From Gaetbulibacter sp. S0825 (GTDB lineage: Bacteria > Bacteroidota > Bacteroidia > Flavobacteriales > Flavobacteriaceae), in the NCBI RefSeq assembly GCF_011777505.1, contig NZ_JAATJT010000001.1, positions 620,001 to 684,000 of the forward strand: DNA of 64,000 nucleotides, in the 5' to 3' direction. Each line of letters opens with the position of its first letter. The first letter of the stretch is position 1. The position numbers were made by a program, and so were the translations under genes. The notes under the pieces are model-generated. The model made no database searches. It was not told the DNA's origin and saw only the letters and a list, made by a program, of their open reading frames with translations. Positions 47,632 through 62,874 of this stretch are shown piece after piece.

Positions 47632-49152
47632 ATGAGTATAGCAAAAATTACATCGCTAAAAGCGTTATTAGCAAAACCATTTGCAAAACAAATTCGAAAA
47701 AAAGTTAATAAATGGGCAAATAATCCAATAAAAACACAGCAAAAGGTTTTTCAAAAACTAATTTCATCGGCTACACCTACCGTTTTTGGTAAAGACCATG
47801 ATTTCATAAGTATTAATTCATACGAAGATTTTGTAAAACGAGTTCCGGTAAGAGATTATGAAGGATTAAAACATTATGTTGATAGGGTTGTCCATGGAGA
47901 AGAAAACATCCTTTGGAAAGGAAAGCCTATATATTTCGCAAAAACCTCAGGAACAACCTCAGGTTCTAAGTATATTCCAATTACTAAGGAAAGCATGCCT
48001 TCGCATACCGAAGCTGCTAGAAATGCCATTTTAATGTATGTGGCGGAAACTGGTAAAACAAGTTTTGTAAATGGCAAAATGATTTTTTTACAAGGAAGTC
48101 CAATTCTAGAGGAAAAAAACGGAATAAAACTTGGACGACTTTCAGGGATTGTAGCACATTATGTTCCTAAATACCTTCAAAAAAACCGAATGCCTAGTTG
48201 GGAGACCAACTGTATTGAAGATTGGGAAACCAAAGTGGAAGCTATTGTAGATGAAACCCTAAACGAAGACATGACCATTATTAGTGGTATTCCTTCTTGG
48301 GTACAAATGTATTTTGAACGACTTCAACAGCGCACCAACAAAAAAATAGGTGATATTTTTAAAAATTTCAACCTATTCATTTTTGGTGGTGTTAACTATG
48401 AGCCTTATAGAGCAAAATTTGAAAGCTTAATAGGTCGAAAGGTTGATAGTATTGAGTTATATCCAGCAAGCGAAGGCTTTTTTGCTTTTCAAGACAAACA
48501 GAATGAAAAAGGCATGTTACTGCAATTAAATTCTGGTATTTTTTACGAGTTTATAAAAGCAGATGATTTTTTTAGCGACAACCCAAAACGAATTACAATT
48601 AAAGACGTAGAGTTAGGCGTAAACTATGTCATGATTATTTCAACAAACGCAGGTCTTTGGGCGTATAATATTGGCGATACGGTTGAGTTTGCCTCTTTGA
48701 AACCCTATAGATTAATTGTTTCTGGGCGAATCAAACACTACATTTCTGCTTTTGGAGAACATGTTATAGCAAAAGAAGTGGAACAGGCACTTCAAGAAGC
48801 AACAAGCAATAATAATAACATTTTGGTATCTGAGTTTACAGTTGCCCCACAAATAAATCCACCAGAGGGACTACCTTACCATGAGTGGTTTATAGAGTTT
48901 GAAAACGATATTAAAAACCTAGAGATACTGGCAACTAGAATAGATGAATCTCTCCAAAACCAAAACAGCTATTACAAAGACTTAATCCAAGGAAAAGTTC
49001 TCAAACCTTTAAAAATAACAACAGTTAAAAATGAAGGATTTAAGGAATATATGAAATCAGTCGGCAAATTAGGTGGACAAAATAAAATACCGAGACTGTC
49101 TAATGATAGAAAGATAGCCAATACCCTCTATAAAAATAATTTGGTTAATTAG
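47632..49152 (+). CDS. GH3-family acyl-adenylate/acyl-acid amido synthetase
   Basis: GH3 proteins in plants join amino acids to auxin or jasmonate through an adenylate; bacterial members are uncharacterised. The 506-residue protein shows IYFAKTSGTTSGSKYIPIT (the ATP-loop motif), NLFIFGGVNYEPYRAKFE, SIELYPASEGFFAFQ and the C-terminal ISAFGEHVIAKEVEQAL with YHEWFIEFE. Start ATG follows the M23 stop without a gap, so the two are cotranscribed. The acyl acid and amine are unknown. Confidence 0.9.
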   Translation: MSIAKITSLKALLAKPFAKQIRKKVNKWANNPIKTQQKVFQKLISSATPTVFGKDHDFISINSYEDFVKRVPVRDYEGLKHYVDRVVHGEENILWKGKPIYFAKTSGTTSGSKYIPITKESMPSHTEAARNAILMYVAETGKTSFVNGKMIFLQGSPILEEKNGIKLGRLSGIVAHYVPKYLQKNRMPSWETNCIEDWETKVEAIVDETLNEDMTIISGIPSWVQMYFERLQQRTNKKIGDIFKNFNLFIFGGVNYEPYRAKFESLIGRKVDSIELYPASEGFFAFQDKQNEKGMLLQLNSGIFYEFIKADDFFSDNPKRITIKDVELGVNYVMIISTNAGLWAYNIGDTVEFASLKPYRLIVSGRIKHYISAFGEHVIAKEVEQALQEATSNNNNILVSEFTVAPQINPPEGLPYHEWFIEFENDIKNLEILATRIDESLQNQNSYYKDLIQGKVLKPLKITTVKNEGFKEYMKSVGKLGGQNKIPRLSNDRKIANTLYKNNLVN

Positions 49153-49179: not shown

Positions 49180-50868
49180 ATGAGTAAAAAGCACCAAGGA
49201 AGAACAAGAGCACAGGAAAGTTCTAGTGCCATTGAACGCATGTATATTACAATGCGCCATTTATTTAATCGTGGATTTTATAAACCCATGGGTGTTTCGG
49301 GAGAGACGCTAAGAGAGGCTCTTTTGCTTTTAAGGCCAGAAATTTATGGCTCTATTGCTGAAGAGAAAGCAGAATTAAATGGATTACTGTATGTTATTGA
49401 CAGGCTTCCTAGAGGTATAGAAGAATGTAGGTTTATCAACCTTACAAGTGATGAAGGTTATGGGAATTCACATTTTGAAGTTATTATCCCACCTAAAAGG
49501 CGTCGTAATTGCTACCGTATAGACGAAGAGCAAATGAATATTGAAATCACGAGAGGGCGATCGGAAATTTATGATATTTTAACCCATTTAACATTTTTAT
49601 TCATTGAATCACATAAAATTAGTAAACGTGTAATAATCAACGAAAAAGGAGATACCATACGTGATTGGGTGAAGCTAGAGAAAGCAGTTTTATCTGGGAA
49701 AAAATTAACCCAAAAAGAGCGGGAAATTGCCATTACACACACAGCTAATATTTTAGGAAGAACTTTTGAAGAGCTTACACATACGTATTCCTTATTTGCT
49801 ACAAAATCACAACCAGAACGCTTATTACAAATAGTGTATTGGCTGGGTAAATTAGCTATTGAAGAAGTTATTAGCAACACGAAAAGAACAGTTACTTTTA
49901 GCCCTGTTTTACGAGAACGCTTGGGGCATCATATTCATGGTGAAATTTGGGCAAACAATATTAAAGAGGTACTTAAAAAAAACAATTTATTGGAGCGTCC
50001 GATGCATATTATTAGTGCCAACTTGCATAGTGTTATGAATACACTTCATGCACCAAAAGCATTAAAAACGGGAGCTTCAAAAAAAGATGTTTTTCAAATA
50101 TATGAAGCATTAAGCCAAACTAATAGTGAGGCTTTACGAAATAAAGTGAGCCAAGAGGCTAACAAATCAGGAATGATTTATATTAAAGACACTTCTGGAA
50201 CCAATATTGACGTTCAAATTTTTGATACCGAAAAAATTAATTTTGATTTTCTTGATTTAAAAATAAATAAAGACAATTCTAAATCAGAAAAACCAGTTAT
50301 ATTCGTAATGGATTATGCTTTTGGAGAACAAGCTTTTGAGACTATTGATGAATTCTTGAAACCTTATGAAAATGGAACCGATAAAATACATTTAAATATT
50401 GAATCGATTTCAATTATGGGTAAAGCAGGAATTTTAGAAGGTGGTAAAGGAGATATTATGATTCCGTCAGCTCATATTTTTGAAGGCACTGCAGACAATT
50501 ATCCTTTTACAAATGAGTTATGTAAAGAAGATGTTGAAGGACAAGGTGTTAATGTTTATGAAGGAGCAATGATAACAGTATTGGGAACATCTCTTCAAAA
50601 CAAAGAGATATTGAAGTTTTTCCATGATTCTACTTGGGATGTGATTGGATTGGAAATGGAAGGAGCACATTATCAAAAAGCCATACAATCGGCGGCAAGA
50701 ATTAGAAAAAGTATTAATCCAGATGTTAAAGTGCGCTATGCATATTATGCAAGTGATAATCCTTTAGAAACAGGAAGTACTTTAGCTTCAGGAGGTTTAG
50801 GAACAAGTGGTGTTAGACCAACATATTTAATAACACGTAAAATTTTAGAACAAATATTTAATTCATAG
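49180..50868 (+). CDS. DUF6909-like protein with nucleoside-phosphorylase-like C-terminal part
   Basis: The 562-residue cytoplasmic protein starts with a basic stretch, then helices (SAIERMYITMRHLFNRGFY, EALLLLRPEIYGSIAEEKAE) and IIPPKRRRNCYRIDEEQ. In the C-terminal third, GLEMEGAHYQKAIQSAARI (Glu492-Met-Glu494-Gly) followed by YAYYASDNP (Asp526) recalls the MEG and SD motifs of the nucleoside phosphorylase/nucleosidase superfamily, and INIES-like PVIFVMDYAFGEQAFE precedes it. I recall this arrangement as a Bacteroidota family of unknown function. Promoter box at 49155-49162. Confidence 0.6.
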   Translation: MSKKHQGRTRAQESSSAIERMYITMRHLFNRGFYKPMGVSGETLREALLLLRPEIYGSIAEEKAELNGLLYVIDRLPRGIEECRFINLTSDEGYGNSHFEVIIPPKRRRNCYRIDEEQMNIEITRGRSEIYDILTHLTFLFIESHKISKRVIINEKGDTIRDWVKLEKAVLSGKKLTQKEREIAITHTANILGRTFEELTHTYSLFATKSQPERLLQIVYWLGKLAIEEVISNTKRTVTFSPVLRERLGHHIHGEIWANNIKEVLKKNNLLERPMHIISANLHSVMNTLHAPKALKTGASKKDVFQIYEALSQTNSEALRNKVSQEANKSGMIYIKDTSGTNIDVQIFDTEKINFDFLDLKINKDNSKSEKPVIFVMDYAFGEQAFETIDEFLKPYENGTDKIHLNIESISIMGKAGILEGGKGDIMIPSAHIFEGTADNYPFTNELCKEDVEGQGVNVYEGAMITVLGTSLQNKEILKFFHDSTWDVIGLEMEGAHYQKAIQSAARIRKSINPDVKVRYAYYASDNPLETGSTLASGGLGTSGVRPTYLITRKILEQIFNS

Positions 50869-50871
50869 ATT

Positions 50872-51951
50872 ATGAGTACAAATCTACCAGAACAACAACC
50901 ATCCGAAGAAATCGATTTAGGACAATTGTTTAAACTCATCGGCAATGCATCCGAACGCTTTTTTAAATTTATTGGCAGTATATTTAATAAGCTCTTTCTA
51001 GCGTTTGTCTGGTTTGTGTTTTTCACAAAAAAACATTTTTTAAAATTTGTGATTGCTGGAATTATTGGTGCTGGATTAGGATTTGTTAAAAATAAGACAG
51101 AAAAAAAGGTATATAACTCAACAGCCATTATTAAGCAAAATTATGATACTGGCGAACACCTTTTTAACACTATAAATTATTATAACTCTCTGTTTCAACA
51201 AAAAGACTCAATAGAATCTTCAAAAATATTAAATATAAAAACATCCAGATCTAATGAAATTGCAGGATTAGAAATGGAATCTAATCTAACAGAAAACCAA
51301 AAATTGCAATTGTTTAATGAGTATGTTAAAACCTTGGATTCTGTATTGGCAAGTACAGTTGAATACAAGGATTTTTTAGAAAACTCAAAAGATTATAATT
51401 ACAATATTCAAAAAATAACCTTAAAATCATTTACAAAAAGTAATTTTAATGATGTACTTAAAAATATTATAAAGAATATTGATTCAAGTGAGTTTTTTAG
51501 AAATGAAAAGGAAAAACGTATTACTAAGCTGATAGAGACGGACAAAGTAATTGCGACATCCTTAGAAGAATCTAGAACGCTTAAAGAGGTTTATACTCAA
51601 GTTTTACAACAACAACTGGAAGAAGTGCCATTAGGAGGTTCAACTAATATAGTTGTTGGTGGGGCTAGTGACAAAAACACCACAAAAGAATACGAGCTTT
51701 TTAGCAAAGACCTAGAATTAAGAATGGAACTTGTTGAGAATGAAGCTGGCAGAAAAAATTTAGAAAAAATCATTGAAATAGTATCAATACAAGATGGAGA
51801 TGGAACTCTTGATAATAAAGCTAAATTATTTGGAATTCAAACGAGTTGGATTGTTTCTTATGGAACTAAACTAGTAATATTTTCTTTTTTAGTTTTATTA
51901 TTACTTGAATTCTTAAAATTCCTTGATCGTTACAAAGACAAAGTACAATAG
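50872..51951 (+). CDS. Wzz-like polysaccharide co-polymerase/membrane protein
   Basis: The 359-residue protein has a membrane region near residues 40-75 (LFLAFVWFVFFTKKHFLKFV, then AGIIGAGLGFV), a long helical extracytoplasmic part, and a last helix at about 320-345 (VSYGTKLVIFSFLVLLLLEFL) with a basic tail. This two-helix, coiled-coil layout and the VYNSTAIIKQ strand after the first helix match chain-length regulators (Wzz/PCP). No tyrosine-kinase domain is fused. It lies directly before the rhamnose genes and shares their direction, fitting glycan assembly. Confidence 0.68.
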   Translation: MSTNLPEQQPSEEIDLGQLFKLIGNASERFFKFIGSIFNKLFLAFVWFVFFTKKHFLKFVIAGIIGAGLGFVKNKTEKKVYNSTAIIKQNYDTGEHLFNTINYYNSLFQQKDSIESSKILNIKTSRSNEIAGLEMESNLTENQKLQLFNEYVKTLDSVLASTVEYKDFLENSKDYNYNIQKITLKSFTKSNFNDVLKNIIKNIDSSEFFRNEKEKRITKLIETDKVIATSLEESRTLKEVYTQVLQQQLEEVPLGGSTNIVVGGASDKNTTKEYELFSKDLELRMELVENEAGRKNLEKIIEIVSIQDGDGTLDNKAKLFGIQTSWIVSYGTKLVIFSFLVLLLLEFLKFLDRYKDKVQ

Positions 51952-51952
51952 A

Positions 51953-52963
51953 ATGACTATTTTAATTACAGGAGGAGCAGGATTTATTGGCTCTAATTTT
52001 ATTCCGTATTTTTTAGGTCAACACAAAGAAACACATATTGTGAATCTTGATAAACTCACCTATGCAGGCGAACTTTCTAATCTAAAAGACATAGAGAGCA
52101 ATGAACGTTACACCTTTGTAAAAGGAGACATTTGCGATAGAAATTTAGTTGAAAACCTATTTAACACTCATGATTTTAAAAGTGTAATTCATTTTGCTGC
52201 AGAATCTCATGTAGATAATTCTATTGAAAAACCAGACGAATTTATTAAAACCAATGTTTTAGGGACATTTAACCTTATAGACGCTGCTAAAAACCACTGG
52301 ATGGATGCTCCTTTTAAAGTAAAGGAGAACTATGAGAATTGTCGTTTTCATCATATTTCAACTGATGAGGTGTTTGGTACATTAGGAAAAACTGGATTAT
52401 TTACAGAGAATACGCCTTATGCTCCTAACAGTCCATATAGCGCTTCAAAAGCATCGTCTGATTTTGTAGTACGAAGCTATTTTCACACGTATGGATTAAA
52501 TGTAGTAACCACTAATTGTTCAAATAATTATGGGCCAAAACAACATGATGAAAAATTAATCCCAACCATTATTAGAAAAGCAATTCGAGGAGAAAACATA
52601 CCTATTTATGGAGATGGTCTAAATGTTCGTGATTGGTTGTATGTATTAGATCATTGTGTTGGTATTGATTTGGTGTTTCAAAAAGGAACATCTGGAGAGG
52701 TTTATAATATAGGGGGTAAAAACGAACGTAATAATCTTTATATTGCTCATACAATATGCAATATATTAGATGAGGTATTGCCTAATAAACTATCTTATAA
52801 AGAACAAATAGCATTTGTAAAAGATAGGCCTGGGCACGATTTTAGATATGCCATTGATGCTTCAAAAATTGAAACAGAATTGGGCTGGAAAGCATCTGAG
52901 AACTTTGAAACAGGTATTAGAAAAACTGTTAAGTGGTATTTAAAGAAATATACTAAAAATTAA
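51953..52963 (+). CDS. rmlB: dTDP-glucose 4,6-dehydratase
   Basis: RmlB converts dTDP-glucose to the 4-keto-6-deoxy sugar, step 2 of dTDP-L-rhamnose synthesis. The frame is open from 51923, but ATG 51953 gives the true start ([19 protein letters not shown]). NAD motif GGAGFIGS, then [25 protein letters not shown], and the catalytic [11 protein letters not shown] (Tyr-x3-Lys) are intact; 336 residues is normal. It starts two bases after the Wzz-like gene stop. Confidence 0.97.
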
Positions 52964-52966
52964 ATT

Positions 52967-53002
52967 TTAATAGATTCCTGTGTTCACAGGAAATAGATAT
53001 GA
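52967..53002 (+). promoter_or_regulatory. Hairpin covering the rmlA ribosome-binding site
   Basis: TTCCTGTG (52975-52982) pairs perfectly with CACAGGAA (52985-52992). The AGGAA lies six bases before the rmlA ATG (52999), so the SD-like site is sequestered when the hairpin forms. Flanks TTAATAGATTCCT and TAGATATGA match those of the rnr leader at 22088-22121. Confidence 0.5.
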
Positions 53003-53856
53003 AAGGCATTATACTTGCAGGAGGCTCAGGAACTAGATTGTATCCGCTTACCAAAGCGGTGAGTAAACAATTGATGCCTGTTTACGACAAGCCCATGATT
53101 TATTACCCTTTAAGCATACTAATGTCCGCGGGAATAAAAGAGATACTTATTATCTCTACACCAATTGATCTTCCTAAATTTAAAGAACTACTTGGTGATG
53201 GGAGAGATTATGGCTGTCGTTTTGAATACGCCATTCAAAATGAACCAAATGGTTTAGCCGAAGCTTTTTTAATTGGCGAATCTTTTATAGGTAATGACAA
53301 AGTTGCTTTAATTTTAGGAGATAATATTTTTTATGGTTCAGGTTTAGCCCAGTTATTAGAAACCAATAACAACCCTAATGGAGGCGTTATTTTTGCTTAT
53401 CATGTTCAAGACCCTCAAAGATATGGTGTAGTAGAATTTGATAGCAGTAATAAAGCAATTTCAATTGAAGAAAAACCAGAAAAACCAAAATCAAATTTTG
53501 CTGTTCCTGGAATTTATTTTTATGATAATAATGTCGTAGAGATTGCTAAAAATATTCAACCTAGTCATAGAGGAGAGCTTGAAATTACCGATGTTAATAA
53601 AGCATATTTAAAACAAGGAAAACTCAATGTGCAAATCCTCGATAAAGGCACCGCTTGGTTAGACACAGGAACTTTCAATTCTTTAATGCAGGCCTCACAA
53701 TTTGTTCAGGTTATAGAAGAACGACAAGGTTTAAAAATTGGTTGTATTGAAGAAACAGCCTTTAAACAAGGCTTTATCAATAAAGAAGAGTTACTTAAAT
53801 TAGCACAGCCATTACTTAAAAGTGGTTATGGAAAATATCTTGAACAGCTGGTATAA
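52999..53856 (+). CDS. rmlA: Glucose-1-phosphate thymidylyltransferase
   Basis: RmlA makes dTDP-glucose, step 1 of the rhamnose pathway. The 285-residue protein has the nucleotidyltransferase signature [21 protein letters not shown] (Gly/Arg loop), [26 protein letters not shown] and [11 protein letters not shown]. Length and motifs are complete. A hairpin in the 35-base gap after rmlB covers its SD-like site, so its translation may be lower than that of rmlB. Confidence 0.97.
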
Positions 53857-53857
53857 C

Positions 53858-54403
53858 ATGAATACAGAAGAAACACATTTAAAAGGGTGCTTTGTAATCT
53901 CTCCTAAACTACATCATGATGACAGAGGTTTCTTTTTCGAAAGCTATAACAAGAAGGATTTTGAAAAGGCTATTGGCCAAACAGTAAATTTTGTACAAGA
54001 CAATCATTCCGTATCCAATAAAGGTGTTTTGAGAGGCTTACATTTTCAAACAGGCGATTTTGCACAAGCAAAGCTACTTCGAGTTATAAAAGGAAGTGTA
54101 CTAGATGTTTGTGTAGACATAAGACCAAACTCTTACACTTTCGGACAATATTTTTCGATTATTTTGGACAATATTGATCACAAACAACTATTTATTCCTA
54201 GAGGGTTTGCTCACGGGTTTCTAGTATTAGAAGATGATACTATTTTCAATTACAAATGCGATAATTATTATAGTAAAAATCATGAATCTGGGTTATTGTT
54301 TAACGATCCAGCGTTACAAATAGATTGGAATTTCCCATTGAACAATATCATTTTATCAGAAAAAGACAAGCAACTTCCAACATTTGAAAGTCTATTAAAA
54401 TGA
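53858..54403 (+). CDS. rmlC: dTDP-4-dehydrorhamnose 3,5-epimerase
   Basis: RmlC epimerises C3 and C5 of the keto sugar. From ATG 53858 (the open frame extends to 53822, inside rmlA) the 181-residue protein shows DDRGFFFESYNKKDF, FVQDNHSVSNKGVLRGLHFQ (His-Arg-Gly active site), VLDVCVDIR and LFIPRGFAHGFLVL. All match the family. Its last bases overlap the rmlD start (ATGA). Confidence 0.96.
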   Translation: MNTEETHLKGCFVISPKLHHDDRGFFFESYNKKDFEKAIGQTVNFVQDNHSVSNKGVLRGLHFQTGDFAQAKLLRVIKGSVLDVCVDIRPNSYTFGQYFSIILDNIDHKQLFIPRGFAHGFLVLEDDTIFNYKCDNYYSKNHESGLLFNDPALQIDWNFPLNNIILSEKDKQLPTFESLLK

Positions 54404-55191
54404 GTATAAACGTTTTGGTTACTGGCGCCAATGGGCAATTAGCAAAAACGCTTCAAAAACTTTATAAAAATAATGAAGACCATATCGAATTCACTTTTGT
54501 CACAAAAAAAGAATTAGATATTACAGATATTCAACAAGTTCAAAACTACTTTTCAAATAACACCTTTCATTATTGCATAAACTGCGCTGCTTACACCAAT
54601 GTAGAACAAGCTGAAAAAGCATCAGAGATAGCTTTTAAAGTAAATGCTGAAGCGGTTAAAAACTTAGCAGAAACTTGTAAAAAAGCTAATACCATTTTGA
54701 TTCACATATCAACGGACTATGTGTTTGATGGTGAAAAACATAAACCTTACACTATAGAAGATATTCCTAATCCTATTAATGAATATGGAAAATCAAAATT
54801 ATTGGGCGAACAATATATTGAAGAAACCTTAGAGCACTATTTTATAATTAGAACCTCTTGGTTGTATTCAAAAGAATTTGGACATAATTTCTACAGAACT
54901 ATTTTGAATAAGTCCAAAACAGAAAAGGAACTATGTATTACCGATGCACAGACAGGTTGTCCTACAGATACGGTCAATTTATCTATATTTATCAATAAAC
55001 TCATTTATGAGCAATCAAAAGACTTTGGCATCAAGCATTTTTGTGATACTAAAGCAATGACTTGGTTCGATTTTGCCCAACAAATTTTAAAAGAGAATGG
55101 CTTGGAAAATAAAATAAAACTTGTTAAAGCAAAGAAATACCCTACTTTTGCAAGGAGACCCAAGAACTCTATTTTATTAAATAATAACTAA
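54400..55191 (+). CDS. rmlD: dTDP-4-dehydrorhamnose reductase, C-terminally shortened
   Basis: RmlD reduces the keto sugar to dTDP-L-rhamnose. NVLVTGANGQLAKTLQ (NAD motif), NCAAYTNVEQAEK, ISTDYVFDGEKHKPY, NEYGKSKLLGEQ (Tyr-x3-Lys) and IIRTSWLYSKEFGHNF are all present. The frame stops just after YPTFARRPKNSILLN, 263 residues in all; E. coli RmlD (299) has about 30 more residues after the same RRPxNS motif, forming the last helix. The pseB gene starts seven bases later. The missing tail may weaken or unfold the enzyme, or mark a recombination join. Confidence 0.92.
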   Translation: MSINVLVTGANGQLAKTLQKLYKNNEDHIEFTFVTKKELDITDIQQVQNYFSNNTFHYCINCAAYTNVEQAEKASEIAFKVNAEAVKNLAETCKKANTILIHISTDYVFDGEKHKPYTIEDIPNPINEYGKSKLLGEQYIEETLEHYFIIRTSWLYSKEFGHNFYRTILNKSKTEKELCITDAQTGCPTDTVNLSIFINKLIYEQSKDFGIKHFCDTKAMTWFDFAQQILKENGLENKIKLVKAKKYPTFARRPKNSILLNNN

Positions 55192-55198
55192 AAGACTT

Positions 55199-56218
55199 AT
55201 GTTTGATTTAAAAGGAAAATCTTTACTAATCACAGGAGGAACTGGTTCCTTAGGAAAAGCCTTAACCAAGCACATATTAAGTAAGCATCCAGAAATCAAG
55301 AAATTGGTCATTTTTTCAAGAGATGAACAAAAACAATTTCAAATGGCTCAAGAATTTCCAATTACTGAATTCCCTCAAATACGGTTTTTTATTGGAGATG
55401 TTAGAGATAAAGAACGCTTAGTAAGAGCTTTTCAACATATTGATTATGTGATTCATGCAGCCGCAATGAAACATGTTCATATTGCTGAGTATAACCCAGA
55501 TGAATGTATAAAAACTAATATAGGAGGCGCCGAAAATGTGGTTGATGCTTGTTTTAAAACAAAAGTTACTAGAGTAGTTGCACTATCTACCGATAAAGCT
55601 TGTGCACCAATTAACCTTTATGGGGCAACTAAATTGACTTCAGATAAGTTATTTATAGCTGCTAACAATATTAAAGGAGAAAATCCAATTAGATTCTCTG
55701 TTGTGAGATATGGCAACGTTATGGGCTCCAATGGATCTGTAATCCCATTTTTTATAAATAAAAAGAAAGAAGAAGGCAAACTACCAATTACCGACCCCAA
55801 CATGACGCGCTTTAATATTTCTCTTCAAGGCGGTGTCGATATGGTCATGCACGCACTTGAGCATGCTTGGGGAGGCGAATTATTTGTACCTAAAATCCCA
55901 TCATATAAAATCATGGATGTTGCCAACGCCATTGGCCCTGAATGTGAAAAACCTGTTGTTGGAATTAGGCCAGGAGAGAAAGTACATGAAGAAATGATTA
56001 CACCTTCAGACTCTTTTTACACTTACGATTTAGGAAAGTATTACACTATTCTGCCAGCAACTCATATGTGGAAGCTTGAGGATTACCTATCAAAATTCAA
56101 AGCTAAAAAAGTACCGTTAGGGTTTAGCTATAACTCTGGAGAGAACAGTGATTGGGAAACCGTTGAAACCCTTAGAAAGCTAATTAAGGAGCATGTCGAT
56201 TCTAATTTCAAAGTATAA
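55199..56218 (+). CDS. pseB: UDP-N-acetylglucosamine 4,6-dehydratase (inverting)
   Basis: PseB makes the 4-keto-6-deoxy-L-arabino sugar, the first step of pseudaminic acid synthesis. The 339-residue protein shows KSLLITGGTGSLGKALTKH (NAD motif), FSRDEQKQFQM, HAAAMKHVHIAEYNP (the AAAxKxV motif of the inverting group), and ALSTDKACAPINLYGATK with catalytic Tyr and Lys. Its stop overlaps the pseC start by one base (TAATG), so the two are coupled. Confidence 0.95.
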   Translation: MFDLKGKSLLITGGTGSLGKALTKHILSKHPEIKKLVIFSRDEQKQFQMAQEFPITEFPQIRFFIGDVRDKERLVRAFQHIDYVIHAAAMKHVHIAEYNPDECIKTNIGGAENVVDACFKTKVTRVVALSTDKACAPINLYGATKLTSDKLFIAANNIKGENPIRFSVVRYGNVMGSNGSVIPFFINKKKEEGKLPITDPNMTRFNISLQGGVDMVMHALEHAWGGELFVPKIPSYKIMDVANAIGPECEKPVVGIRPGEKVHEEMITPSDSFYTYDLGKYYTILPATHMWKLEDYLSKFKAKKVPLGFSYNSGENSDWETVETLRKLIKEHVDSNFKV

Positions 56219-57363
56219 TGAAAGCTATACCTTACGGAAGACAGCATATTGACCAAACAGATATTGATGCTGTTGTCTCAACATTACAAGCAGATTTTCT
56301 GACTCAAGGACCAAAAGTTCAAGAATTTGAAAATAAATTTGCTGACTATGTGGGCTCTAAATATGCAGTAGCAGTAAACAATGCCACTTCAGGATTACAT
56401 TTAGCTGTTTTAGCTCTTGGCTTAAAAGAAGGAGAACGCGTTATAACAACCCCTATTACTTTTGCCGCCTCTGCTAACTGTGTTAGATATGCAGGAGGTG
56501 AAGTTTGGTTTGCCGATATTGACCCAGACACGTATTTACTTTCAATAGAAAGCACAAAAAAACTCATAAATAGTAAACCTAAAGGGTTTTTTAAAGGAAT
56601 TATTCCAGTGGATTTTGCTGGACTTCCAGTAAACTTAGAAGCTTTTAGGGATTTAGCAAACGAACACGATTTATGGATAATTGAAGATGCTTGTCATGCT
56701 CCTGGAGGTTACTTCTCAGACTCAAAAGGCGTAAAACAAATGTGTGGCAATGGTAATTATGCCGATATAGGTATATTTTCATTTCATCCAGTAAAACATA
56801 TTGCTTGTGGTGAAGGCGGAATGATAACCACCAATTCTGAAAAACTTTATAAGAGACTTTCATCTTTAAGAACACACGGTATTACTAAAGAAGATATGGC
56901 AGAAAACCACGGTGGATGGTTTTACGAAATGCAAGAATTAGGGTATAACTATAGATTAACAGACATTCAATCGGCTTTAGGAATTACACAACTTACAAAA
57001 AACAAAGCTGGTGTAGCCAGGAGAAATGACATAGCAAACAATTACAAGCAAGCTTTTAACGGAAAAGTAAAGTTCCAAAGCTTACCAGATGGAAATTTAA
57101 ATGCACACCATTTGTTTGTTGTTGAAGTTGATGATAGAAAAGGGCTTTATGACTTTTTAAGAACACATCATATTTATGCACAGATACACTATATTCCTGT
57201 ACACACCTTACCTTATTATAAAGAAATAGGTTATGGAAGTACAGATTTAAGCAAATCAGAAAACTATTATTCTAGGTGTATAAGTTTGCCAATGTATCCA
57301 ACACTAAGTAATGAAGAACAAGGCTTTGTTATAGAGAAAGTATTAAAGTTTGTTAATGGTTAA
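56218..57363 (+). CDS. pseC: UDP-4-amino-4,6-dideoxy-N-acetyl-beta-L-altrosamine transaminase
   Basis: PseC is a DegT/DnrJ-family PLP enzyme that adds the C4 amino group. The 381-residue protein shows IPYGRQHIDQTDIDAVVSTL, AVAVNNATSGLHLAVLALG, VDFAGLPVNLEA, WIIEDACHAPGG, and the PLP lysine in FSFHPVKHIACGEGGMI. All fit PseC/FlmB. The next gene overlaps its end by eight bases. Confidence 0.95.
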   Translation: MKAIPYGRQHIDQTDIDAVVSTLQADFLTQGPKVQEFENKFADYVGSKYAVAVNNATSGLHLAVLALGLKEGERVITTPITFAASANCVRYAGGEVWFADIDPDTYLLSIESTKKLINSKPKGFFKGIIPVDFAGLPVNLEAFRDLANEHDLWIIEDACHAPGGYFSDSKGVKQMCGNGNYADIGIFSFHPVKHIACGEGGMITTNSEKLYKRLSSLRTHGITKEDMAENHGGWFYEMQELGYNYRLTDIQSALGITQLTKNKAGVARRNDIANNYKQAFNGKVKFQSLPDGNLNAHHLFVVEVDDRKGLYDFLRTHHIYAQIHYIPVHTLPYYKEIGYGSTDLSKSENYYSRCISLPMYPTLSNEEQGFVIEKVLKFVNG

Positions 57364-58231
57364 TAAATTAATATTAGGAACTGCCCAATTAGGTCTAGAT
57401 TATGGGATTAATAATCAACTAGGGAAACCCTCAATAGAACAATCATTTGAGATTTTAAATACTGCTTTCGAAAATGGTATTAGGATACTAGATACTGCTG
57501 AGGCTTATGGGAATTCGACAGAAATCATAGGTAGATTTACTAAAGAATATCCTAAAAAAAAGTTCAAGATCATTAGTAAATTAGCAACTACCGCAGATTT
57601 ATCCAAAAAAGACCTATCCACTCATATTACTGAGAGTTGTCACATATTAAATATTGATCAATTTCATGGATACATGTTTCATAATTATAGTAGCTTCAAA
57701 CAAAACATTAATCTATATGATGAATTGTTAACCCTAAAGTCTAAAGGATTAATATTAAACACTGGGATTTCACTTTACACTAATGAAGAACTCCTTGATA
57801 TTATTGAAAATTTTAATAATTTTGATTTTATTCAAATTCCGTTTAATTTACTAGATAACCACTTAAGAAGAAACGCACTGATTTTAAAGGCTAAAGAAAA
57901 AGATATTGCAATACACACAAGATCAACGTTTTTGCAAGGCTTGTTTTTTATGGATTCATCGGCATTACCAGATCGATTAACGCCTTTAAAACAGTATCTT
58001 CAAGAATTAGAAAAAATAAAGGCTGATAATAATTTAACTACAGAAGTTCTTGCGCTTCAATATGTAGTACAGAAAAATTATATTGACCAGATTTTAATTG
58101 GAGTGGAAACACCTCAACATGTAATTGACAATGTAGCTCTATGTAAAGCTCATGCTAAAATACCTCATGATTGTATTGATAAAATTAACGTTATTGAGAC
58201 GGTCTTGTTAAACCCATCTAATTGGAGCTAA
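57356..58231 (+). CDS. Aldo/keto reductase in the pse cluster
   Basis: From ATG 57356 (the open frame begins at TTG 57350) the 291-residue protein has KLILGTAQLGLDYGINNQ, ILDTAEAYGNSTEIIG (catalytic Asp and Tyr), KIISKLAT (catalytic Lys) and GYMFHNYSS (catalytic His), the AKR tetrad. It overlaps pseC by eight bases. AKRs of this sort recur in pse and leg clusters but have no fixed step in the textbook pathway; it may act on a modified sugar or make a precursor of a side group. Confidence 0.85.
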   Translation: MVNKLILGTAQLGLDYGINNQLGKPSIEQSFEILNTAFENGIRILDTAEAYGNSTEIIGRFTKEYPKKKFKIISKLATTADLSKKDLSTHITESCHILNIDQFHGYMFHNYSSFKQNINLYDELLTLKSKGLILNTGISLYTNEELLDIIENFNNFDFIQIPFNLLDNHLRRNALILKAKEKDIAIHTRSTFLQGLFFMDSSALPDRLTPLKQYLQELEKIKADNNLTTEVLALQYVVQKNYIDQILIGVETPQHVIDNVALCKAHAKIPHDCIDKINVIETVLLNPSNWS

Positions 58232-58314
58232 ATTTAAAATCGAAACAAAAAAACTAGTTATAAGCACTTGTCAGTAAAAAAAACTCCTTAATTTAAAGAC
58301 AAAATAGATTTATC

Positions 58315-59289
58315 ATGAAAAGCATAGTACTTCTAGGTCATGGAGTCGGAGTTAAATTCGTTATAGATTCCTTATTAAAAAACAATAAGAATTATCGTGT
58401 TATAGCGGTATTTACGCACCCTTTTAAAGAACATAAAAGAGATTTGGAATTGATTGAAAGGCGGAAAGATATTTATGGAGAATATGCATATAATGTATTT
58501 AATTTAAAACAGGATTATGATATTGATGTGCATGAATCTGATAATATTAACACCCTTGAAACAGTTTCAAAAATCAAAAGCTATAATCCAGCATACATTA
58601 TTAGTATAGGATGTAGAAATATTTTGAAAGTTGATTTTCTGAGAGAATTCCCTCAAAAAGTATTAAACATTCACACAACACCATTACCTACCTATAGAGG
58701 AGCAGCCAGCGACTCTTGGATGATTCTAAACAATGAATTGGGTAAAGAGAAATATGGTTGTATGCATTATATTGATTCTGGGATTGATACTGGAGATATT
58801 ATTGCCAAATCATATTATACCATACCAAAAAAATCTTATCCCATTGATGTATTTAAATCAAGAATGGATGTGTTTCACGACATCATAATAAAAGGAATAA
58901 CCAATCTAGAAGACCCTAACTTTATCCCTGAAAAACAAGACTCAAGCAGATCAACAACTTTTCCAAGGCTTTATACACCTAAAGATGGTCATATCGATTT
59001 CAATAGCTATTCAGGAGATGAATTAATTCGTTTTATACTCGCTTTTGGCTACCCTTTTGAGGGCGCATTTTGTTTTTTAGAAGATCAAAAGATTAATATT
59101 TTGGATGCTGAATTTTGTAGCGACCTTAGTTTTCATTCTTTTTCACATGGATTAATTTTTGGTAAAAACGAAAACAACGAATACAAAGTTAGTGTTAAAG
59201 GTGGCTACATAATTGTGAAGAAGGTTGAAATTAATGGAGTGTTTACAAAACAATCTAAAGTATTTAGACTAGGAAAATATTTAAAGTAA
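58315..59289 (+). CDS. Formyltransferase-family enzyme (probable sugar N-formyltransferase)
   Basis: The 324-residue protein resembles the Fmt/PurN fold: catalytic Asn118, His120 and Asp158 appear in LNIHTTPLPTYRGAASDSW and YIDSGIDTGDII. The C-terminal part (about 225-324) resembles the Fmt C-terminal OB-like domain (LIRFILAFGYPFEGAFCFL). Context in a pse cluster suggests it puts a formyl group on an amino sugar rather than on methionyl-tRNA. The 83-base gap before it has no recognised promoter. Confidence 0.78.
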   Translation: MKSIVLLGHGVGVKFVIDSLLKNNKNYRVIAVFTHPFKEHKRDLELIERRKDIYGEYAYNVFNLKQDYDIDVHESDNINTLETVSKIKSYNPAYIISIGCRNILKVDFLREFPQKVLNIHTTPLPTYRGAASDSWMILNNELGKEKYGCMHYIDSGIDTGDIIAKSYYTIPKKSYPIDVFKSRMDVFHDIIIKGITNLEDPNFIPEKQDSSRSTTFPRLYTPKDGHIDFNSYSGDELIRFILAFGYPFEGAFCFLEDQKINILDAEFCSDLSFHSFSHGLIFGKNENNEYKVSVKGGYIIVKKVEINGVFTKQSKVFRLGKYLK

Positions 59290-60054
59290 ATGAAAGTAGT
59301 TGTAGTCACACAGGCAAGATCAGGATCCACGCGTTTGCCAAATAAAGTCTTATTAAAGATTGAAGGTAAAACATTATTGCAAATTCATATCGATAGGATA
59401 AAGCAAGCAACACAAGTGGATGATATTTTCATAGCAACAACAACTGAAATAGAAGATGATATTATTGCTAATCTTGCAGAGGGCTTAGAAGTAAAATATC
59501 ATAGAGGAAGTGAAAATGATGTGTTAGATAGGTTTTACAAAACTGTAAAAGATATTAAACCAGATTTTATTGTAAGACTTACTTCAGATTGTCCACTTAT
59601 AGACCCTCAACTATTAGATGAGGTTATCATTAAGGCCAAGGAAGAAGATTTAGATTATTATGCTAATATCATTAAAGAGCTTTATCCAGACGGTCAAGAT
59701 ATAGAGGTATTTAAGTTTTCTGCCTTAGAAAAAGCATGGAGAGAGACCAATTTAAAATCAGATCGAGAACACGTGACACCTTATATTAGGAATAACTCTT
59801 CCTATTTAGGAGGTACGATGTTTAAATCTAATAACCATGGTTTAGAACAAAATTATAATCATGTGCGATTAACTGTTGATGAACCTCAAGATTTTGAAGT
59901 TATAAAAAAGATAATTGAAGACCTTGATTTAGATAAAGACTGGAAAACTTATGCAGATTATTATTTGAACAATCCTGAAATTAAAGTACTTAACGATAAA
60001 ATCACGAGAAACGAAGGCTATCAAAAATCTATCGATCAAGACAAAAACAATTAG
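59290..60054 (+). CDS. SpsF-like cytidylyltransferase (CMP-pseudaminate synthase role)
   Basis: The 254-residue protein has the CTP-binding VVVTQARSGSTRLPNKVLLK (ARxGSxRLPxK), LLQIHIDRIKQA, HRGSENDVLDRFYK and FIVRLTSDCPLIDP. This is the SpsF/glycosyltransferase-like branch of CMP-sialate synthases. In this cluster it takes the place of PseF, activating pseudaminic acid to the CMP sugar. Starts directly after the formyltransferase stop. Confidence 0.85.
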   Translation: MKVVVVTQARSGSTRLPNKVLLKIEGKTLLQIHIDRIKQATQVDDIFIATTTEIEDDIIANLAEGLEVKYHRGSENDVLDRFYKTVKDIKPDFIVRLTSDCPLIDPQLLDEVIIKAKEEDLDYYANIIKELYPDGQDIEVFKFSALEKAWRETNLKSDREHVTPYIRNNSSYLGGTMFKSNNHGLEQNYNHVRLTVDEPQDFEVIKKIIEDLDLDKDWKTYADYYLNNPEIKVLNDKITRNEGYQKSIDQDKNN

Positions 60055-60084
60055 TAACTTTACAGATAGTATTATTATTTGAAT

Positions 60085-61398
60085 ATGAGCAAAAGAACAG
60101 GCCAAAATCTTTACAAAAAAGCAAAAACATTAATTCCAGGAGGAACCATGTTGCTTTCAAAACGACCAGAAATGTTTTTACCAGATAACTGGCCGTCTTA
60201 TTTTTCAAAAGCAAAGGGGTGCAAAGTTTGGGATCTTGATGGTAACGAATACACAGATATGTGTATTATGGGCATAGGCACTAACACCTTGGGTTATGGC
60301 AATGATGAAGTAGATAATGCCGTTATCGAAACAGTAAAAAAAGGAAACATGAGCACCTTTAATTGCCCAGAAGAAGTTGCGCTAGCCGAAAAATTAGTAG
60401 AACTCAACCCTTGGGCAGATATGGTTCGATTTGCTAGAAGTGGTGGAGAAGCCAATTCTATCGCTATCAGAATTGCTAGAGCTGCTTCAGGAAAAGATAA
60501 AGTTGCTATTTGTGGGTATCATGGTTGGCATGATTGGTATCTTTCAGCAAATCATAATAAGGGCGACGAATTATCAAGTCATTTATTATCTGGATTAAAT
60601 CCTAATGGTGTTCCTAAAAACTTAAAGAATACAGTATATCCTTTTCATTATAATGATTTTGAAGAACTACTCGAAATCGTCACCAGCAATGATATTGGTG
60701 TTATAAAAATGGAAGTGATGCGAAATTTTGGACCTGAAGATAATTTTTTACAGAAAGTTAGAGACTTAGCAACTCAGCGAAATATTGTATTAATTTTTGA
60801 TGAATGCACCTCAGGGTTTAGAGAAACTTATGGTGGTATTTATAAGAAATATGGTGTCGAACCAGATATGGCAATGTACGGAAAAACTATTGGTAATGGT
60901 TATGCTCTAACGGCTGTTGTGGGCAAAAAAGCAGTCATGGAAGCGGCTCAAACCTCTTTTATAAGCAGTACTTTTTGGACCGAACGAATTGGCCCTACAG
61001 CCGCACTAAAGACCTTAGAAGTAATGCAAAACATGAAATCATGGGATATCATTACTGCTCAAGGAAAAAAAATACAAAGTCAATGGAAGTCTTTAGCAGA
61101 AACGCACAATATAGAAATTATGGTATCAGGTATGCCAGCACTAAGCACCTATAGTTTCAGTAGCGATAATGCAATGGCTTATAAAACATTTGTAGCTCAA
61201 GAAATGCTTAAAAAAGGGTTTTTAGCGAGCACAAATTTTTATGCATGTACAGAGCACAAAGACGATAACATAGCTGATTATTTTGATGCATTAGAAGGGG
61301 TTTACAAGATGATTTCAGATTGTGAAAAAGGTCATAAAAATATTCATGATTTATTAGAGGGACCTGTATGCCATTCGGGGTTTAAACGGTTAAATTAA
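60085..61398 (+). CDS. Class III PLP aminotransferase (glutamate-1-semialdehyde-aminomutase-like)
   Basis: The start is set at ATG 60085; the open frame reaches a TTG at 60079. The 437-residue protein shows YKKAKTLIPGGTMLLSKRP, SGGEANSIAIRIARAASG, ICGYHGWHDWY, IFDECTSGFRE (PLP Asp) and AMYGKTIGNGYALTAV with the PLP lysine. The fold is that of GSA aminomutase, but hemL is not expected here; similar genes lie in many pse clusters with no proven step. It is probably involved in a side-group or an alternative amino sugar. Confidence 0.85.
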   Translation: MSKRTGQNLYKKAKTLIPGGTMLLSKRPEMFLPDNWPSYFSKAKGCKVWDLDGNEYTDMCIMGIGTNTLGYGNDEVDNAVIETVKKGNMSTFNCPEEVALAEKLVELNPWADMVRFARSGGEANSIAIRIARAASGKDKVAICGYHGWHDWYLSANHNKGDELSSHLLSGLNPNGVPKNLKNTVYPFHYNDFEELLEIVTSNDIGVIKMEVMRNFGPEDNFLQKVRDLATQRNIVLIFDECTSGFRETYGGIYKKYGVEPDMAMYGKTIGNGYALTAVVGKKAVMEAAQTSFISSTFWTERIGPTAALKTLEVMQNMKSWDIITAQGKKIQSQWKSLAETHNIEIMVSGMPALSTYSFSSDNAMAYKTFVAQEMLKKGFLASTNFYACTEHKDDNIADYFDALEGVYKMISDCEKGHKNIHDLLEGPVCHSGFKRLN

Positions 61399-62874
61399 AT
61401 GATCAAAAAAGTAATCTTTAGAGCAGATGGGAGTTCTACAACGGGGTTAGGTCATTTATATAGATTATTTAGTCTGGTAGAAATTGTAAAAGACACTTTA
61501 GATTTTGTGTTTTTAACACACGAAACAACTACAAATTCAGTTATATCAAAAACTTATCACAAAGCCATCATACCAAGAGAAATTAATATTGAAGATGAGC
61601 CTGAATGGTTGGCGGCTAATTTTTTACCGGAGGAACATATTATTATTGCCGATGGGTATCAATTTAACTCGCTATACCAAAAAAAAGTAAAACAAAAAGG
61701 ATATAACCTGATTTATATTGATGATTTAGCCAAAGAATATATGTATGCAGATGTGGTTATTAATCATTCACCATATATTCAAGAAAAACGCTATAATAAA
61801 GAACCAAATACAAAATTAGCTTTAGGTACAAAATATGCTTTATTAAGACCATTATTTTTAGAGGAGGCAACAAAAGATAGAACAATAAATGTAATTGATA
61901 GTGCTTTTGTGTGTTTTGGTGGGGCTGACCCTATTAATTTAACATTAATTGCAGTTAAAGCACTTTTACAAATCCCAACCTTTAAAAAAATACATGTTGT
62001 TTTAGGGGGTGCCTATAAACATATTGAAATTTTCGATTTAGAAGTTAAGCATTCTGATAAAATAAAAACGCACAAAAACCTTTCAGAAGAACGATTAATA
62101 AAAGTTATGCAACAATGCAACTTTGCGGTTGCGCCTGCAAGCACAATTTTGTATGAGCTCTCTTGTATTAAAATGCCTATTTTGAGCGGGTATTTTGTTG
62201 ACAATCAAAAGAACATATATAAAGGCTTAGTTAAAGAAAAAACTATCATAGAAGGTGGAGATTTAACCAAATACACAAGCTCTGATTTTAAGCAAGAAAT
62301 TAGTTCTGCTATAAATAAAAATAGAGCAGAATCTTTTATAGCGCATCAGAAGAACCTAATCGACGGAAATAGTAAAAACCGCTTCTTAGGATTGATAAAC
62401 GGATTGACGATTTCTCTTAGAAAAGCAAAAGAAGAAGATATGTTGCTTGTTTTCAAGTGGTCAAATGATAAATTAGTAAGAAAGAACTCTTATAATTCTA
62501 AACCTATTTTATTAGAAAACCACAAAAAATGGTTTTTGCAAAAAATCAAAAGCCAAAACACCTTGTTTTTAATAGCTTTAATAAATGATGAACCATCTGG
62601 AGTAGTAAGGTTTGATATAGGTAAGCATTATTCGACTGTTGGAATTTTGGTGTCAAAATTCTATAGAGGTCAAAAACTTGCTAGTGAATTTTTAAAGGAA
62701 TCTGCAAAAATATATTTCAGAATACAAACGGTGCCCATATTGGCTTATATTAAAAAAGAGAATAAGGCATCAACTAAAGCCTTTGAAAATGCAAATTATA
62801 AGTATTTTAAGGATGAAAATGTTAAAGGAAGTACTAGTTTTGTATATAAATTAGAAAAACAAGATGTTGGATAA
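61399..62874 (+). CDS. pseG: PseG-PseH fusion: UDP-sugar hydrolase with GNAT acetyltransferase
   Basis: Residues 1 to about 330 match PseG, which removes UDP from the diacetamido sugar: KVIFRADGSSTTGLGHLYRLF, IADGYQFNSLYQKK, VINHSPYIQ, VCFGGADPINLTL and CNFAVAPASTILYELS. From about 334 to 491 a GNAT domain follows (ISLRKAKEEDMLLVFKWSN, WFLQKIKSQNTLFLIAL, VGILVSKFYRGQKLASEFL), matching PseH, the N4-acetyltransferase that acts one step earlier. The two usually separate enzymes are joined in one 491-residue chain, and no stand-alone pseH is seen. pseI overlaps its end by 11 bases. Confidence 0.92.
   Translation: MIKKVIFRADGSSTTGLGHLYRLFSLVEIVKDTLDFVFLTHETTTNSVISKTYHKAIIPREINIEDEPEWLAANFLPEEHIIIADGYQFNSLYQKKVKQKGYNLIYIDDLAKEYMYADVVINHSPYIQEKRYNKEPNTKLALGTKYALLRPLFLEEATKDRTINVIDSAFVCFGGADPINLTLIAVKALLQIPTFKKIHVVLGGAYKHIEIFDLEVKHSDKIKTHKNLSEERLIKVMQQCNFAVAPASTILYELSCIKMPILSGYFVDNQKNIYKGLVKEKTIIEGGDLTKYTSSDFKQEISSAINKNRAESFIAHQKNLIDGNSKNRFLGLINGLTISLRKAKEEDMLLVFKWSNDKLVRKNSYNSKPILLENHKKWFLQKIKSQNTLFLIALINDEPSGVVRFDIGKHYSTVGILVSKFYRGQKLASEFLKESAKIYFRIQTVPILAYIKKENKASTKAFENANYKYFKDENVKGSTSFVYKLEKQDVG

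Follow-up and report, generated by a model that had tools for sequence, protein, structure and literature searches.

Modification at C8 of pseudaminic acid has been described for prophages of Acinetobacter baumannii, in which EpaA, bearing a CTP_transf_3 and an Aldo_ket_red domain, acts together with the short-chain dehydrogenase EpaB to convert Pse5Ac7Ac into its 8-epimer; the excerpts of that paper give NMR after complementation as the proof of C8 epimerisation (PMC12053666). Sugars with an amino group at C8 appear in the excerpts of a review, namely an 8-amino nonulosonic acid in the O-polysaccharide of Flexibacter maritimus and 8-amino-Kdo in Shewanella (PMC3210612). The structure of the 8-amino nonulosonic acid is therefore published, and no paper on its biosynthesis was found in the open-access library searched. 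In Shewanella, 8-amino-Kdo is made by KdnA and KdnB, which belong to other enzyme families than the aldo/keto reductase and the aminotransferase described below.

The window analysed here, a stretch of 64,000 nucleotides from Gaetbulibacter sp. S0825, contains a Pse gene cluster. PseB, PseC, PseG, PseI, PseF, PseH and HemL were judged by NCBIfam profiles with their cut-offs and domains by Pfam; rfbB, rfbA, rfbC and rfbD were named by reading the sequence, without a family search. The features are as follows:

51923..55191, + strand: dTDP-rhamnose-type genes rfbB, rfbA, rfbC and rfbD, upstream of pseB (open reading frames and translations)
55199..56218, + strand: pseB, UDP-GlcNAc 4,6-dehydratase (inverting); TIGR03589, 497 bits vs cut-off 408
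56218..57363, + strand: pseC, C4 aminotransferase; TIGR03588, 454 bits vs cut-off 424
57356..58231 (from ATG), + strand: AKR, aldo/keto reductase; PF00248 Aldo_ket_red, 125 bits
58315..59289, + strand: FT, sugar N-formyltransferase; PF00551 Formyl_trans_N, 67.5 bits, and PF02911 Formyl_trans_C, 32.9 bits
59290..60054, + strand: SpsF-like cytidylyltransferase in the place of PseF; PF02348 CTP_transf_3, 129 bits
60085..61398 (from ATG), + strand: GSAT, class-III PLP aminotransferase; PF00202 Aminotran_3, 138 bits vs cut-off 30.5
61399..62874, + strand: pseG fused to a pseH-like GNAT (PseG part about 61408–62220, GNAT part about 62413–62793); TIGR03590, 182 bits vs cut-off 154, and PF13302
62864..63886, + strand: pseI, pseudaminic acid synthase; TIGR03586, 511 bits vs cut-off 340

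PseB, PseC, PseG and PseI of the canonical pathway were thus all above their NCBIfam cut-offs. The GNAT domain at the C-terminus of the pseG product (residues 339–465 by Pfam), which the preliminary description had overlooked, is PseH-like yet under the PseH cut-off (TIGR03585, 35 bits vs 93), and its fusion to PseG suggests a PseH role. That description had placed an aldo/keto reductase, a formyltransferase-type enzyme and a GSA-aminomutase-like PLP enzyme between pseC and pseG, which open reading frames and Pfam bear out. It was also right that the activating enzyme is SpsF-like instead of PseF, since the protein with 129 bits to PF02348 failed the PseF profile (TIGR03584, 22–23 bits vs cut-off 206). 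PseF over cut-off was absent from the whole genome too, where the best match outside the cluster reached 126 bits vs 206.

The AKR family tetrad, Asp46, Tyr51, Lys75 and His109, was at least 95% conserved (90 rows, duplicates and short loci included), and we take Asp-Tyr-Lys-His to be the aldo/keto reductase tetrad; a genome search at E 1e-4 returned AKR itself and no second relative. The residues reported earlier as intact in FT, Asn118, His120 and Asp158, are all present and are presumably the catalytic residues of Formyl_trans_N enzymes; His120 and Asp158 were at least 95% conserved across 40 FT domains, duplicate and short loci again counted, and Asn118 is missing from the list of residues conserved to that degree. 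The closest solved structure to FT in the PDB was ArnA, and the PseJ formyltransferases 6ci2 and 6ci4 also matched. In GSAT, Lys267 and Asp239 were at least 95% conserved (103 rows, duplicates and short loci included), and alignment with GSA aminomutase places Lys267 as the putative PLP lysine.

GSAT might be a housekeeping glutamate-1-semialdehyde aminomutase that lies here by accident, as GSA aminomutases come nearest to it among solved structures (E 6.8e-39) and no other HemL over cut-off occurs in this genome. We rejected this reading, whose chance we regard as negligible, because GSAT scored 196 bits vs the HemL cut-off of 527 (TIGR00713), because glutamyl-tRNA reductase over cut-off is also absent from the genome, which leaves a housekeeping HemL with no known substrate source, and because a separate HemL over cut-off was found in 10 of 12 GSAT genomes, the exceptions being this genome and G082.

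A gene co-occurrence survey, as had been suggested, showed that the combination of AKR, SpsF and GSAT recurs. Related loci were taken as the best 80 of 585 GSAT matches; in these, SpsF and GSAT were fused in 50/80 and fused or adjacent in 74/80, AKR was found within 8 kb in 68/80, and PseC over threshold was retained in 47/80, as in the window. The recurrence of AKR near SpsF-GSAT rules it out as a random neighbour. SpsF-AKR fusions were also found (L035, L048 and L133), and one further fusion tying AKR/GSAT to a cytidylyltransferase is known from print. Gene set and gene order repeat in loci labelled with many phyla, including, among these best 80 of 585, marine SAR11, SAR116 and a single archaeal MAG (taxonomic labels of MAGs are not always correct), and this identical order excludes a gene set assembled by chance. 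A phage origin was rejected, as AKR had no match in the phage collection and GSAT reached at most 28% identity among the matches listed there. Of the 6 loci with no labelled SpsF, 4 had a NanA-like lyase at most 4 kb from GSAT, and no such lyase was found in the remaining loci (best 80 of 585), which fits GSAT acting on a nonulosonic acid.

The distribution of GSAT and PseF was compared in two samples. Among 148 genomes of the order, 11 had PseI, of which 5 had GSAT, 5 others PseF over cut-off, none both and 1 neither. Among 395 genomes of the phylum, 56 had PseI over cut-off, with GSAT in 10, PseF in 17, both in none and neither in 29, where GSAT or PseF (over cut-off) was counted if its coordinates lay within 10 kb of PseI, so that G310, whose GSAT is 24 kb away, and G229, whose PseF falls short of the cut-off, were scored as neither. 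Pooling the unique PseI genomes (n = 60) gave 12 with GSAT near PseI, 18 with PseF, 0 with both and 30 with neither, an exclusivity with P 0.008 if the genomes are assumed independent and their relatedness is ignored. PseF-like matches under cut-off occurred elsewhere in three GSAT genomes (G000, G056 and G124), and PseF-like domains co-occurred with SpsF-GSAT in L067, L069, L081 and L137. The conserved AKR-SpsF-GSAT module takes the place of PseF.

We propose that GSAT serves as a C8 nonulosonate aminotransferase, and that the product of the cluster is, with good likelihood, CMP-activated 8-amino-8-deoxy-pseudaminic acid, most likely 8-N-formyl; its backbone would likely be 5,7,8-triamino-3,5,7,8,9-pentadeoxynonulosonic acid. 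PseB, PseC, the PseH-like domain, PseG and PseI would give 5,7-di-N-acyl-pseudaminic acid by the usual route. At the UDP-hexose stage the future 8-oxygen is the ring oxygen and the 8-hydroxyl is free only after PseI, so that the C8 steps should follow PseI. AKR would oxidise C8, beside the C9 methyl, to a ketone, GSAT would move an amino group onto this ketone, FT would formylate the new 8-amine, and the SpsF-like enzyme would be the CMP-synthetase in the stead of PseF. The genes, the conserved residues, the replacement of PseF and an extra acyltransferase slot (below) are seen at the level of sequence; from these we infer amination at C8, the direction of AKR, the substrate of FT and the order of the steps, which might take place on the free sugar or the CMP-sugar. 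The preliminary description had suggested a modified nonulosonic acid, perhaps N-formylated or bearing a side group that the reductase and the aminotransferase would supply. The evidence supports a nonulosonic acid that is modified and probably N-formylated, whereas such a side group appears less likely than C8 amination in view of the fusions to the cytidylyltransferase, the exchange of PseF and the C8 precedent of EpaA.

An 8-amine would offer a further site for acylation. In runs on one strand from PseC (over 450) to PseI (over 400), 24 of 38 GSAT clusters had a GNAT or FT in the interval from PseC to GSAT and 14 had neither there, whereas the interval from PseC to the CMP-transferase held no GNAT or FT in any of 17 controls. 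GSAT loci without such a run were dropped, as were short loci and L128, L130 and L131 (duplicates of L021, L031 and L030); the controls were 16 of the 18 clusters of PseF genomes (L112 and L115 dropped) and the AKR plus short-chain dehydrogenase cluster L139, and L116, with PseF outside the run, was scored as none. Total acyltransferase numbers, counted before duplicates were removed, overlap between cases and controls: among clusters with PseG, cases had 1 (14) or 2 (13) and controls 0 (1), 1 (9), 2 (1) or 3 (1); among clusters without PseG, cases had 2 (7) or 3 (6) and controls 0 (1) or 2 (4). Methyltransferase-like genes occupied the extra slot in GSAT clusters and also in PseF controls (control genes named by reading), and are therefore uninformative on the amine.

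Alternatively, FT might work in the manner of PseJ and formylate the amine that PseC places at C4, which would yield 7-N-formyl pseudaminic acid, while AKR and GSAT would serve to make a distinct acyl or side group. The match to the PseJ structures speaks for this, as does a 5-acetamido-7-formamido sugar of this type given for Pseudoalteromonas in the review excerpts (PMC3210612), and in BLAST the FT of the window scored 89 bits with the AKR-side FT of L078 and hardly less, 81 bits, with the PseG-side FT of L117. In the supported FT tree, by contrast, the FT of the window fell into one group (97/92) with those of L078, L068 and L016, which lie upstream of AKR, and those of L023 and L136, which have other positions, apart from nine FTs that adjoin PseI after PseG or a GNAT (100/99), a kind found beside PseI in PseF controls as well; a quick first tree was in agreement. 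PseG is already fused to a PseH-like domain, and the SpsF-GSAT and SpsF-AKR fusions bind both enzymes to the sugar rather than to an acyl chain. We therefore give the PseJ-like reading a small chance. FT as a substitute for PseH is disfavoured on the same PseH-like fusion and the split of the supported tree. Since this fused domain would already serve the amine of the UDP-4-amino sugar and the FT of the window stands apart (97/92) from FTs beside PseG/PseI, the UDP-4-amino sugar proposed earlier for an in vitro assay of FT was probably the wrong choice.

Loci that lack some of these genes bear on which carbon is aminated. Seven loci had SpsF-GSAT, AKR and an RmlD-like reductase without PseC over threshold (pseB was not seen in two of the seven, L054, at a contig edge, and L064, and L074 holds DegT-type genes under the PseC threshold); they suggest a module independent of C7 amination, a point for the 8-amino reading. 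Four others (L019, L046, L056 and L059) had SpsF-GSAT and a NeuB-type synthase with neither AKR nor PseC over threshold. These four would suit a GSAT that aminates another carbon, either C7 directly from the PseB 4-ketone in the stead of PseC, or C4. However, PseC over threshold is present in the window and in most of the best 80 of 585 loci as counted above, we know of no C4-amino nonulosonic acid, and the EpaA precedent, in the excerpts available, sits at C8 (PMC12053666), making this option quite improbable. In Legionella pneumophila, the genes listed for serogroups 6 and 12 closely resemble this set (PMC3694923), but non-1 serogroups are reported to have homopolymers of the legionaminic type that lack an 8-amino group. 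This reported structure and the four loci without AKR sit awkwardly with the 8-amino reading.

The AKR of EpaA gives rise to a further alternative, epimerisation or another change at C8 that leaves no stable amine, with AKR acting as in EpaA and GSAT only shuffling or removing nitrogen. Pairs of AKR and short-chain dehydrogenase were found within or close to Pse-type clusters (L139, L141 and L143), and near an N-acetylneuraminate synthase-family gene in L142, with GSAT absent from the stretches shown. Compared with GSAT-linked AKRs, these four reached 34–41% identity (124–205 bits) in their best matches and an unrelated AKR 20% (64 bits), and the AKR tree gave moderate support around L139 (85/85; G056, G124, G082 and G013 entered twice). 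These pairs, like EpaA-EpaB, also count for C8 as the position acted on in our own proposal. Such dehydrogenase-paired AKRs of the same family, the epimerase activity of EpaAB in the excerpts (PMC12053666) and the possibility that GSAT near NanA-like lyases runs as a deaminase all favour a change without amine. Against it, a short-chain dehydrogenase of the EpaB kind lay within 8 genes of GSAT in 8 of 102 GSAT loci and was missing from the other 94 (counts with duplicate and short loci), and an additional acyltransferase slot calls for something to acylate; we consider it very improbable. In the window, no EpaB-like short-chain dehydrogenase occurs from pseB to pseI, and by analogy we read GSAT as occupying the position of the EpaB-type enzyme. 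This likeness is drawn from published domain names only, because the EpaA sequence was not found in the phage collection (two partial matches), in viral contigs (without relatives) or in plasmids, where no Acinetobacter was among 20 records listed of 54.

Returning to C8 amination by GSAT, AKR-SpsF-GSAT may be a general, widely transferred module for several nonulosonic acid backbones, on sugars free or acyl-capped, with the 8-N-formyl product of the window as one case and GSAT by NanA-like lyases as a mark of the breakdown of such sugars; we see an even balance for and against this extension. The backbones so meant, a view held with equal reserve, would be those made with PseC, with the RmlD-like reductase or with neither. 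If the proposal is true, the absence of PseF from GSAT clusters is explained, and GSAT beside SpsF (74/80 loci, best 80 of 585) becomes a marker that predicts a third nitrogen on the surface sugar. A sugar with an amine in place of a hydroxyl differs in mass by no more than 1 Da, so that the exchange could be missed in sugars called Pse-like.

Compared with the canonical pathway (PseB, PseC, PseH, PseG, PseI and PseF), the window shares PseB, PseC, PseG, PseI and a PseH-like domain, and differs in having SpsF for PseF and the additional AKR, GSAT and FT. FT is of the same sugar N-formyltransferase family as PseJ but longer (324 aa vs 192–217 aa for the PDB chains), with a C-terminal domain. 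KdnA-KdnB follow a logic like that proposed here, oxidation at C8 and then transamination, although on another sugar whose C8 is a primary alcohol. An SpsF-like CTP_transf_3 domain and an aldo/keto reductase are common to EpaA-EpaB and the window, where they are separate neighbouring genes with FT in between, and the C8 work published for EpaA is on Pse, as the excerpts have it; the second enzyme is a short-chain dehydrogenase there and a class-III aminotransferase here, and the extra acyltransferase is on the side of the window only. C8 chemistry would hence be widened from epimerisation by EpaAB to amination. The sugar of F. maritimus (now Tenacibaculum) has the same 5,7,8-triamino-3,5,7,8,9-pentadeoxynonulosonic acid backbone as proposed here; the review excerpts give its 8-amine as amino, naming no acyl group there, and a 3-hydroxybutyryl group, whereas we propose 8-N-formyl, and the three enzymes would provide a genetic explanation for this rare sugar of a marine fish pathogen.

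The cluster under study lies in region G000:C3:620001–684000 of the 3.16 Mb genome of Gaetbulibacter sp. S0825 (G000), and its genes are arranged in the following order:

rfb-type genes, pseB, pseC, aldo/keto reductase (AKR), formyltransferase (FT), SpsF-like cytidylyltransferase, class-III aminotransferase (GSAT), pseG fused to a PseH-like GNAT, pseI

The gene list and coordinates of the preliminary description proved correct by ORFs and family searches of the window, although the PseH-like domain fused to PseG had been overlooked. By reading, the genes 3' of pseI resembled the remainder of a surface polysaccharide locus; one of the five scanned gave a Pfam match, a weak hexapeptide one. Just 5' of the polysaccharide locus, a DUF6909 protein (window 49180–50868) stood behind a GH3-family protein (47632–49152). 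The nearest GSAT relatives, among the matches listed in the genome-contig scan, came from uncultured Flavobacteriaceae and Polaribacter.

The scan of genome contigs for GSAT gave at least 585 confirmed stretches; the analysis covered the 80 best loci among them. SpsF and GSAT were fused in 50 of these 80, and fused or adjacent in 74. Within 8 kb of GSAT we observed AKR in 68/80, a NeuB-family synthase in 57/80, PseB in 48/80 and PseC in 47/80, where 8 kb was available on both flanks in only 47 loci (for these 47: AKR 41, NeuB 40, PseB 33, PseC 30). SpsF–AKR fusions were also present at three loci (L035, L048 and L133), and available excerpts on Vibrio B9-25K2 describe such a fusion followed by a dehydrogenase (PMC7371886). 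AKR and GSAT thus constitute a conserved module with the SpsF-like cytidylyltransferase.

This module stands in for PseF. Among 148 genomes of the order, PseI was found in 11, of which five had GSAT, five others had PseF over the cut-off, none had both and one had neither. Among 395 genomes of the phylum, 56 had PseI over the cut-off; GSAT was within 10 kb in 10 of them, PseF over the cut-off within 10 kb in 17, both in none, and neither marker was found in 29. The chance of zero overlap was 0.018 for the phylum, 0.013 for the order and 0.008 for the pooled 60 genomes, treating genomes as independent and ignoring kinship. Outside both samples, a PseF-like domain occurred alongside SpsF–GSAT at L067, L069, L081 and L137. 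PseF-like matches below the cut-off were located elsewhere in genomes G000, G056 and G124; in G000 this included a second PseF/NeuA-like cytidylyltransferase distant from the cluster (G000:C3:1528596–1529252, 126 bits).

Identity of GSAT with HemL was rejected: it scored 196 bits against a cut-off of 527, its genome had no glutamyl-tRNA reductase over the cut-off, and 10 of the 12 tested genomes with GSAT had a separate HemL (none over the cut-off in G000 and G082). As G000 had neither enzyme over the cut-off, its heme precursors may come from elsewhere.

Regarding the site of action, the available text of PMC12053666 reports, by NMR after complementation, that EpaA (CTP_transf_3 plus Aldo_ket_red) and EpaB, a short-chain dehydrogenase (SDR), convert Pse5Ac7Ac into its 8-epimer. 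Epimerization by two oxidoreductases would most simply proceed via the 8-ketone. AKR and SDR also occurred together, with no GSAT in the stretch, at four loci outside Acinetobacter: L139 of genome G003 (PseB, PseC, AKR, SDR, SpsF, PseG, GNAT, FT, PseI), L143 on a Priestia plasmid (AKR, SDR, pseG, pseH, pseI), L141 on a Marinovum plasmid (SDR, SpsF–AKR; close by, the opposite strand encodes a pseudaminic acid synthase) and L142 on a Maritalea plasmid (an SDR followed by a protein with SpsF and AKR parts, close to a gene of the N-acetylneuraminate synthase family). These are likely further EpaAB-like C8-epimerase pairs. Their AKRs showed 34–41% identity (124–205 bits) to their best GSAT-linked matches, whereas an unrelated AKR reached 20% (64 bits). 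Of the 102 GSAT loci counted, with duplicates and short ones among them, only 8 had an EpaB-type SDR within eight genes of GSAT. Because AKR–SDR pairs exist apart from GSAT, their AKRs are related and an SDR is so seldom near GSAT, GSAT seems to occupy the place of the SDR. The 8-ketone of pseudaminic acid would be a methyl ketone, C8 adjoining the methyl group, and methyl ketones are a usual substrate type of class-III aminotransferases; among solved structures, GSAT is related to an aminopentol aminotransferase and to C-6' aminotransferases, among others. In the UDP-hexose precursor the 8-oxygen is the ring oxygen, and therefore the AKR and GSAT steps would have to come after PseI.

For the fate of the predicted amine, the slot between PseC and GSAT in 38 non-duplicate GSAT clusters that contain both PseC and PseI was compared with that between PseC and the CMP-transferase in 17 controls (16 from PseF genomes and the AKR–SDR cluster L139). 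A GNAT or FT filled it in 24/38 versus 0/17 (one-sided Fisher 4e-6, treating clusters as unrelated), while total acyltransferase counts overlapped more. In the remaining 14 the slot held a gene of another sort, such as a methyltransferase-like one, or was empty; by reading, methyltransferase-like genes occupied this slot in PseF controls as well. The window has FT in the slot and PseH fused to PseG, the close relative L005 has a GNAT in the slot and a PseG–GNAT fusion, and L006 and L007 have a GNAT in the slot and FT behind PseG, where the PseH domain would be. In a tree of 34 FT domains with branch support, the window FT clustered (97/92) with those of L078, L068 and L016, located 1–3 genes 5' of AKR, together with the FTs that L023 and L136 carry elsewhere in their loci, whereas nine FTs beside PseI (behind PseG or GNAT), from both GSAT clusters and PseF controls, formed a separate group (100/99). 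BLAST with the window FT separated the kinds only slightly (L023 110, L078 89, L117 81 bits). Based on the slot enrichment and the tree, we assign FT to the predicted 8-amine, though less confidently than we propose the amination.

Several loci depart from this arrangement. In seven (L015, L034, L054, L061, L063, L064, L074), AKR–SpsF–GSAT was accompanied by a reductase resembling RmlD and by a different synthase of the NeuB type. These seven had no PseC above the threshold and no labelled PseG in the vicinity; two carried a labelled GNAT. Such loci would fit a sugar hydroxylated at C7, which leaves one fewer amine for acylation, and since they keep the module with no PseC over the threshold, they suggest its independence of the C7 amine. 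At L019, L046, L056 and L059 (SpsF–GSAT–NeuB, with PseB in three), neither PseC nor AKR was over the threshold; speculatively, the PseB-derived ketone itself may feed GSAT. L046 also had a DUF218 protein behind the synthase. L013, L039 and L055 carried, besides another synthase, a second NeuB-like protein (331–336 aa) and a divergent CMP-transferase between AKR and GSAT. NanA-like lyases were within 4 kb of GSAT at L044, L076, L080 and L083, possibly nonulosonic acid catabolic loci, and those of the other three had 32–83% identity to the L076 lyase; the two tested (L044, L076) fell below NCBIfam cut-offs. L044 also encoded a NanM-like and a BNR-repeat protein, and L076 an Opp/Dpp-type ABC transporter. 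Pse clusters lacking a labelled PseG (L009, L010, L011, L014, L107, L109, L124 and others) had an extra GNAT near pseI, and some a calcineurin-like phosphoesterase, which are possible UDP-hydrolase replacements.

Evidence against C8 amination comes from Legionella pneumophila. Excerpts of PMC3694923 list CapD (PseB-like), DegT, AKR, SpsF-like, GSAT-like, PseG, NeuB and HisF/HisH for serogroup 6, a set shared by serogroup 12 and similar to the window genes by description, whereas legionaminic-type homopolymers are reported, in the literature excerpts available, for non-1 serogroups. Either these genes have another function there, or the reported structures are not their products. On balance, we still consider C8 amination plus formylation the probable modification predicted for the cluster's sugar; the modified nonulosonic acid first proposed is partly supported and sharpened to this form. 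No description of the biosynthesis of the Flexibacter maritimus 8-amino nonulosonic acid was found in the open-access literature, and the product class is known from that organism according to excerpts of PMC3210612. Compared with the canonical pathway, the window cluster is a Pse pathway without PseF. Its working would be the same as that of EpaAB, EpaA being known here by its published domain make-up, but with an aminotransferase in place of the second reductase; lacking an EpaB-like enzyme, the cluster is not EpaAB.
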